Assembly (NCBI GenBank): GCA_014189675.1
Contig: DVAE01000008.1
Coordinates: 1 to 11,410 of the forward strand
Source: Candidatus Undinarchaeales archaeon SRR5007147.bin71
GTDB lineage: Archaea > Undinarchaeota > Undinarchaeia > Undinarchaeales > Undinarchaeaceae
Direction: 5' to 3'
DNA: 11,410 nucleotides
Shown: positions 5,827 to 10,211 of the stretch, one piece after another
Layout: each line of letters opens with the position of its first letter
How positions within the stretch are numbered: position 1 is the first letter of the stretch
Made by a program: the position numbers and the translations under genes
The notes under the pieces: model-generated
What the model saw: the letters and a program-made list of their open reading frames with translations, nothing else
Told to the model about the DNA's origin: nothing
Databases searched by the model: none

Positions 5827-5860
5827 GTTCGGATATTATCTTAAAGCCACTATAGATTAT

Positions 5861-5944
5861 GCGAAGGTGGCGGAGTGGTCAAACGTGCTAGGTTGAGGGC
5901 CTAGTCCCTTAGTGGGTACGCAGGTTCGAATCCTGTCCTTCGCA
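5861..5944 (+). tRNA. tRNA-Leu (anticodon GAG)
   Basis: This is an 84-nt class II tRNA. The acceptor stem GCGAAGG (5861-5867) pairs with CCTTCGC (5937-5943), and the discriminator is A5944. The anticodon stem CTAGG/CCTAG (5888-5892/5900-5904) frames loop TTGAGGG, with GAG at 5895-5897 reading CUC and CUU. A long variable arm with a CCC/GGG stem is typical of Leu. The T-arm is GCAGG-TTCGAAT-CCTGT. There is no intron and CCA is not encoded. Position 26 is G (5887), the target of Trm1. It lies just after rpo3, where the archaeal r-protein cluster normally continues; tRNA-Leu at this junction is also known in haloarchaea (recalled, not checked). Confidence 0.96.
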
Positions 5945-5987
5945 TATAGGTCTTTAGTTCATTGCCCAACCTATCCTTATATATGAC

Positions 5988-6112
5988 CTTTTTCCCTCGT
6001 CGCTCCGCTCCTCGGCAAAAACCTTGACGAAAAACAATGCTCATAAATGAGCAAGCTTGCCGACTTCGTCGTCAGACGTGACAAACACAAGATACCCTGC
6101 TTCGCAGATATG
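5988..6112 (+). repeat. Dispersed repeat copy A, downstream of tRNA-Leu
   Basis: This occupies most of the 220-bp gene-free gap after tRNA-Leu. Block 1 (5988-6036) matches the reverse complement of 10139-10184: 49 versus 46 nt, two substitutions and three single-base gaps, with the shared core CTTTTTCCCTCGTCGCT. Block 2 (6080-6112) matches the reverse complement of 10106-10137 at 24 of 33 aligned columns, and most differences are transitions. Between the blocks, copy A has 43 extra nt that are highly palindromic: TGCTCAT-AA-ATGAGCA (6038-6053), GCAAGCTTGC (6051-6060) and CGAC-TTC-GTCG (6061-6071). No ORF is credible. It could be a miniature mobile element, an intergenic repeat family or a structured RNA. 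Confidence 0.75.
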
Positions 6113-10022: not shown

Positions 10023-10097
10023 GGGCCCGTGGCTTAGTCTGGCTAGAGCGTTCGACTGATAATCGGAAGGTCGCCGGTTCAAATCCGGCCGGGCCCA
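10023..10097 (+). tRNA. tRNA-Ile (anticodon GAT)
   Basis: This is a 75-nt tRNA. The acceptor GGGCCCG (10023-10029) pairs with CGGGCCC (10090-10096), and the discriminator is A10097. The anticodon stem TTCGA/TCGGA holds loop CTGATAA, with GAT at 10058-10060 reading AUC and AUU. The variable loop is 5 nt (10068-10072). The T-arm is GCCGG-TTCAAAT-CCGGC. There is no intron and CCA is not encoded. G26 (10050) is present, a Trm1 target. The last 15 nt of the gene plus four flanking bases are duplicated exactly 110 bp downstream, with repeat copy B between the two. Confidence 0.97.
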
Positions 10098-10211
10098 TTC
10101 AAATTCATACCTGCTAATCAGATATCTCACGCTTGTCGTGTTTTTCGCAGGTTTTGCCGAGGAGCAAAGCGACGAGGGAAAAAGTGCTGAGGATCCGGCC
10201 GGGCCCATTCA
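10083..10211 (+). repeat. 19-bp direct repeat of the tRNA-Ile 3' end
   Basis: ATCCGGCCGGGCCCATTCA occurs at 10083-10101 (T-arm 3' side, acceptor 3' strand and four flanking bases) and again exactly at 10193-10211. The 91 bp between them (10102-10192) contain repeat copy B. The second copy is followed by TTTTTG, a likely original tRNA terminator. The pattern is either an att-like scar of site-specific integration at a tRNA 3' end or a long target-site duplication. The copy is not itself a tRNA gene. Confidence 0.85.
10106..10184 (-). repeat. Dispersed repeat copy B, downstream of tRNA-Ile
   Basis: This is the second copy of the family seen at 5988-6112, in the opposite orientation. Block 1 is 10139-10184 and block 2 is 10106-10137, with only one base between them, whereas copy A has a 43-nt palindromic insert. 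It lies wholly inside the pair of 19-bp tRNA-Ile repeats. It fills most of the gap between tRNA-Ile and nnrD and has no credible ORF. Confidence 0.75.

Follow-up and report, generated by a model that had tools for sequence, protein, structure and literature searches.

The 3′ ends of tRNA genes are classic landing sites of mobile DNA and, to our knowledge, the known elements that land there carry an integrase. Casposons, with an integrase of the Cas1 family, are found at tRNA 3′ ends in Methanosarcina and Aciduliprofundum, with long target duplications (cited figure 1–27, median 15, in genomes; PMC6977970, PMC4046053), and can occur as tandem insertions at one site (PMC6977970, PMC4046053, PMC6563490). 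Tyrosine-recombinase elements (SSV, pT26-2, and thaumarchaeal elements) restore the tRNA (PMC8371274), leaving an intact gene with its 3′ part duplicated at the far end of the insert. Miniature inverted-repeat transposable elements (MITEs) are short, non-coding, multi-copy, and non-autonomous, with target-site duplications, and integron attC cassettes are non-coding structured units that stand in tandem at one site and in some cases include a single gene. Some of these traits recur in a family of short hairpin elements, two of which (copies A and B) lie in the window, the whole stretch of 11,410 nt analyzed here. The window is contig C30 of the 39-contig, 623,718-bp archaeal metagenome-assembled genome (MAG) SRR5007147.bin71 (G000), the very small genome of a marine archaeon of the Undinarchaeales (PMC7414124). 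We lean towards reading the family as miniature, gene-less, hairpin-structured, non-autonomous mobile elements that insert directly 3′ of tRNA genes and are moved in trans by a presumed staggered-cut integrase.

A search of the whole genome (E < 0.1) gives ten copies or partial copies, and all ten are at the 3′ ends of tRNAs, each time a different one: Leu-GAG, Ile-GAT, Leu-TAA (trailer only), Thr-TGT, Val-TAC, Arg-GCG, Phe-GAA, Pro-TGG, Leu-TAG, and Val-CAC (truncated). About 1.2% of the genome lies within the 200 nt that follow tRNAs. An earlier reading of copies A and B (the sequence-only reading) had suggested a dispersed family that tracks tRNA 3′ flanks, to be looked for as further copies enriched within 200 bp of tRNA genes and with common boundaries; the ten copies bear this out, with one boundary at tRNA position about 59. 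In the same genus, family copies occur in UBA55 (GCA_002495465.1; G002), at Pro-TGG as well as next to a gapped tRNA sequence of its contig C1. When 394 genomes are scanned with the motif TCGTCGCNNNGCTCCTCG, matches outside SRR5007147.bin71 are close to a tRNA in G064 only, an archaeon known here to domain level only.

The sense copies are flanked by an intact tRNA on one side and by a repeat of that tRNA's 3′ end on the other. In the window, this architecture is seen at copy B:

10023–10097, plus strand: intact tRNA-Ile(GAT), host of copy B (ARAGORN, Infernal)
10083–10101, plus strand: proximal copy of the target duplication, ATCCGGCCGGGCCCATTCA, tRNA positions 59 to 73 and 4 nt more
10102–10192, plus strand: copy B, 91 nt, in tRNA sense, no protein-coding gene recognized; bounded by the direct repeats and absent from ARS1358, where the site is exactly empty
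10107–10125, plus strand: hairpin H1, ATACCTGC..GCAGGTAT in the family, imperfect in copy B
10128–10145, plus strand: hairpin H2 (CACG-CTTGT-CGTG) with T5, terminator-like, its four pairs all covarying in the family
10147–10189, plus strand: hairpin H3, an A/T-rich stem around GAGGAGCAAAGCGACGA
10193–10211, plus strand: distal copy of the target duplication, a partial tRNA-Ile 3′ end to which the tRNA tail of the sister genome aligns

The sequence-only reading had overlooked this perfect 19-nt direct repeat. Tail duplications that are perfect or near-perfect, each of the element's own host tRNA, occur at Arg (22 nt), Phe (23 nt), Ile (19 nt), Thr and Val (18 nt each), and Pro (16 nt). The second tail copy starts at tRNA position 56–59, in the T-loop, and ends 0–7 nt beyond the predicted end of the tRNA. 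The period is 109–115 nt in the five full-length sense copies and 81 nt at Pro, for an element of roughly 90 nt.

Empty sites were read from the alignment of tRNA flanks among SRR5007147.bin71, UBA55, and the second genome of the genus, ARS1358 (GCA_002687935.1; G001). Filled and empty sites differ by 115 nt (Arg), 113 nt (Val and Thr), 111 nt (Ile), 109 nt (Phe), and 81–82 nt (Pro), with further flank differences of 57–58 nt (Lys and Val-GAC) and 47 nt (Glu-TTC). In these alignments, the tRNA tail of the sister genome falls on the distal tail copy. Such clean empty sites show that the elements inserted. In these flanks SRR5007147.bin71 and UBA55 are ∼94%–95% identical, which makes the insertions recent.

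The element folds, in tRNA sense, into H1, H2 followed by T5, and H3. Over nine copies, 91.5% of the cells are paired and nine pairs have changed on both sides, with compensation in all four pairs of H2; the covariation score is 0.229 versus 0.037–0.086 for slid structures, the fold being partly derived from one scored sequence, which favors it. The sequence-only reading had offered two identities for the repeat, miniature element and structured RNA, with folding of the alignment as the check. Both are supported, by insertions of the kind that mobile elements make and by a covarying fold of three hairpins. H2 with T5 is reminiscent of a transcription terminator; a consensus terminator scan gave it no score, and the stem has only four pairs. 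Together with the related hairpins common in tRNA trailers, the covarying fold and the T5 after H2 could also fit a structured RNA or terminator that benefits the host at its tRNA genes, owes its spread to recombination, and is maintained by selection, with mobility incidental. This is quite improbable, since the sister genomes lack the family element at most of the same tRNAs, the distal tails are decayed in the ARS1358 copies, and no Rfam family besides tRNA reaches the gathering score, either in the window as a whole or at the two loci. Near both copies, the Rfam matches at E ≤ 5 other than tRNA are at chance level. A match to Plastid-ycf2 was rejected (antisense to the tRNA itself, below the gathering score).

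The tails follow the host tRNA and not the element family, as judged from integrated copies only. The elements at Ile and Phe share 90% identity, yet each has a tail pair of its own tRNA type; because of this, a target duplication made de novo is favored, and the pattern points to the tail copies being, on comparison of sequences, a target-site duplication rather than the result of an attP/attB exchange. That exchange would be expected if the inserts were satellites of tyrosine-recombinase integrative elements or scars left by them, with attL/attR reduced to about 90 nt and mobilized by a viral integrase. The location would fit, since att sites in archaea are most often tRNA 3′ ends (PMC8371274, PMC6563490), as would the flanking repeats, direct copies of the tRNA 3′ end, and the viral-type gene in one insert. 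Such an origin is nevertheless unlikely: near-identical elements (Ile/Phe; Thr/Val/Arg) have host-identical tails on both sides, whereas a conservative attP × attB exchange would leave one donor-type tail, and tyrosine recombinase PF00589 has no match at E ≤ 10 in G000, G001, G002, and G005.

Because of the duplication, a staggered-cut integrase acting in trans is the best fit. It would make two staggered nicks, the first within the T-loop portion of the tRNA gene and the second a short way downstream of that gene; the element, in the form of a small linear or folded single-stranded DNA, would be joined to the cut ends, and gap filling would then yield the duplication and leave the tRNA intact. 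The hairpins may be a recognition feature for the enzyme, and thanks to the terminator-like H2 with T5 the tRNA gene could escape harm from the insertion. The enzyme would probably come from a virus or plasmid absent from the bins, or be of an unrecognized type.

Several observations weigh against the integrase reading. The antisense copies (Leu-GAG, Leu-TAG, and Val-CAC) have no tail copy. The duplication length varies (most 11–23 nt, with outliers of 30–63 nt and longer ones in tandem copies), unlike the product of a fixed-stagger transposase. The elements have no significant terminal inverted repeats, the complementarity of their ends not exceeding that of shuffles, and neither excision nor transposition of them has been observed. 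Besides the tyrosine recombinase, Cas1 (PF01867) was not found in seven genomes (the control is positive in 9 of 14), nor reverse transcriptase (PF00078) in six, and the Y1 (HUH) transposase PF01797 gives nothing above cut-off in six (best E 0.096, with a stop); the last two results also speak against a retroelement and against a REP/RAYT or IS200/IS605 derivative, respectively. The absence of an enzyme is not proof, because the genomes are draft MAGs, 75%–98% complete, with viral or plasmid contigs possibly missing from the bins. Reverse transcription halting at the modified A58 (the tails start near 59) was considered and rejected, with no reverse transcriptase found and tails that run into genomic trailers, as was a single-stranded-DNA mini-hairpin (GCGAAGC), whose strand is inconsistent across families.

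Copy A is the same element as copy B in the opposite orientation. It has an extra piece of 43 nt, carries a transplanted trailer from tRNA-Leu(UAA), and lacks a tail duplication:

5860–5945, plus strand: intact tRNA-Leu(GAG), host of copy A (ARAGORN)
5946–5994, plus strand: transplanted tRNA-Leu(UAA) trailer, 49 nt, which came together with copy A (identity to contig C12)
5985–6117, minus strand: copy A, antisense to its host tRNA, no tail duplication (covariance-model match)
6037–6079, strand not assigned: 43-nt insert with hairpin GCTCATAAATGAGC, in copy A only

Copies A and B had been described as a two-block repeat with the same block order, in opposite orientations beside two tRNA genes, and with a 43-nt palindromic middle in copy A only. 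Block 1 (5988–6036 versus the reverse complement of 10139–10184) is beyond all shuffles (local score 67, maximum 22 in 2000; genome-wide BLAST E about 1e-9). Block 2 (6080–6112 versus the reverse complement of 10106–10137) is weak alone, with a score of 19 that is reached in 3 of 2000 shuffles. It is nonetheless homologous, because a covariance model made without copy A recovers copy A at full length (54.5 bits, E 1.6e-10) and spans both blocks and the insert end to end. The repeat is thus real; both copies lie directly 3′ of their tRNAs, and the opposite orientations are explained by the two classes, sense with tail duplication and antisense without. The first 49 nt after tRNA-Leu(GAG) are identical at 49 of 49 positions to the trailer of tRNA-Leu(UAA) on contig C12, which had been overlooked; a similar trailer is native at tRNA-Leu(UAA) of ARS1358, and the segment after 5945 is missing from the empty site of that genome. 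At another antisense copy, 3′ of tRNA-Val(CAC) (L112, contig C24), the truncated element is fused to an apparent 3′ part of another tRNA gene.

Within the genus, other hairpin families with the same architecture are present at Lys, Glu, Val-GAC, Ser, and Pro-GGG. At tRNA-Ser(TGA) and tRNA-Pro(GGG) of SRR5007147.bin71 (L117 and L121), two perfect tandem copies of a tail-plus-hairpin unit are observed, of 58 bp and 84 bp, respectively. A uniform scan for tails (22-nt tail, ungapped score of 11 or more, distance up to 180 nt, masking of other tRNAs) is positive at 27 of 220 tRNAs in G000 and five other archaea with small genomes, namely G001, G002, G003 (which matches Naiadarchaeum SRR2090159.bin1129), G005, and G064, and at none of 103 in three larger archaeal control genomes; with the tRNA 5′ end or with shuffled flanks, none are found. 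In a slightly looser list of 30 candidates (mean folding z −1.32), the foot of a hairpin lies 0–7 nt before the distal tail in 27; one candidate, Arg-GCG of G064, is apparently a neighboring tRNA and is to be discounted. Scoring of trailers across genomes by folding energy was discarded, being confounded by G+C content.

A hairpin motif GGAGGTATCGG..CTGAT stands just before the duplicated tail in the distant genomes G003 (L191) and G064 (L243 and L245), with compensatory changes in the stem. Weak covariance-model matches are seen in G064 (L229 and L241) and G003 (L199), several directly 3′ of tRNAs without tail duplication, which suggests that similar hairpins occur there as native tRNA trailers. 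Exact pattern scans of IMG/VR gave no match, whether for the window family, for two further hairpin families, or for the GGTATCGG..TTCTGAT hairpin common to G003 and G064.

Trailer hairpins could spread with no dedicated enzyme, by template switching during replication or by break-induced copying from one tRNA locus to another, with the conserved T-loop/T-stem and the T-rich trailers as microhomology. The boundaries do lie in the most conserved part of the tRNA, and T-run/A-run trailer hairpins stand behind G064 tRNAs without tail duplication. The variable duplication length and the transplanted Leu trailer of copy A also speak for such a mechanism. We give it a low probability, considering that one architecture is found again and again behind different tRNAs, with the near-constant period of the five sense copies, and that the signal is missing in the control genomes.

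Some inserts at the same sites bear genes. At tRNA-Glu(CTC) of SRR5007147.bin71 (L114, contig C26), two inserts follow in tandem, a short hairpin element and then 694 bp with the gene for a class-I glutamine amidotransferase (PF00117, E 3.6e-33), with copies of the tRNA 3′ end and trailer between and after them; the copy beyond the second insert is the third tail. In UBA55, the same tRNA that hosts copy A, tRNA-Leu(GAG), has a 612-bp insert (L029:14498–15109) with a 113-residue protein, weakly similar to a CoiA nuclease domain (E 0.013, below cut-off) and with relatives at 49%–56% identity in two IMG/VR viral contigs. At tRNA-Thr(TGT) of ARS1358 (L130, contig C2), a 367-bp insert has a truncated ABC-transporter ATPase and no clear tail copy; a degenerate tRNA-Thr-like sequence lies upstream.

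Casposons, tyrosine-recombinase elements, and MITEs each fail a tested defining feature here. As in casposons, a target-site duplication is found at the tRNA 3′ end, but it covers tRNA positions ∼59 to 73, whereas that of casposons covers only the last 4–7 nt of the tRNA, and Cas1, genes, and terminal inverted repeats are lacking. In contrast to tyrosine-recombinase elements, the inserts are tiny and gene-less, no integrase was found with them, and one family occupies many tRNAs with host-specific tails on both sides. Target-site duplications are found as in MITEs, but they are unusually long, the insertion is strictly specific for tRNA 3′ ends, and terminal inverted repeats are absent. Unlike integron attC cassettes, the elements target tRNA genes and duplicate the target, with no tyrosine recombinase detected. 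Searches confined to open-access papers turned up no description of such elements, subscription literature and preprints lying outside them. It is possible, and we put it forward tentatively, that they form a new class of site-specific elements: gene-less hairpin-coded units that duplicate tRNA positions ∼59 to 73, use an integrase outside the known families, are common to tiny-genome archaea, and occasionally capture genes, with tRNA genes as integron-like cassette platforms.

In very small archaeal genomes, gene-less insertions that copy the tail of the host tRNA are thus recurrent and recent, with no known enzyme found. If the reading is true, they would reveal a hitherto unknown integrase or else a new way of copying without an enzyme, and empty versus filled tRNA loci would be a clear assay. 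They would also be a means of genome plasticity and gene capture in archaea that are regarded as poor in mobile elements.
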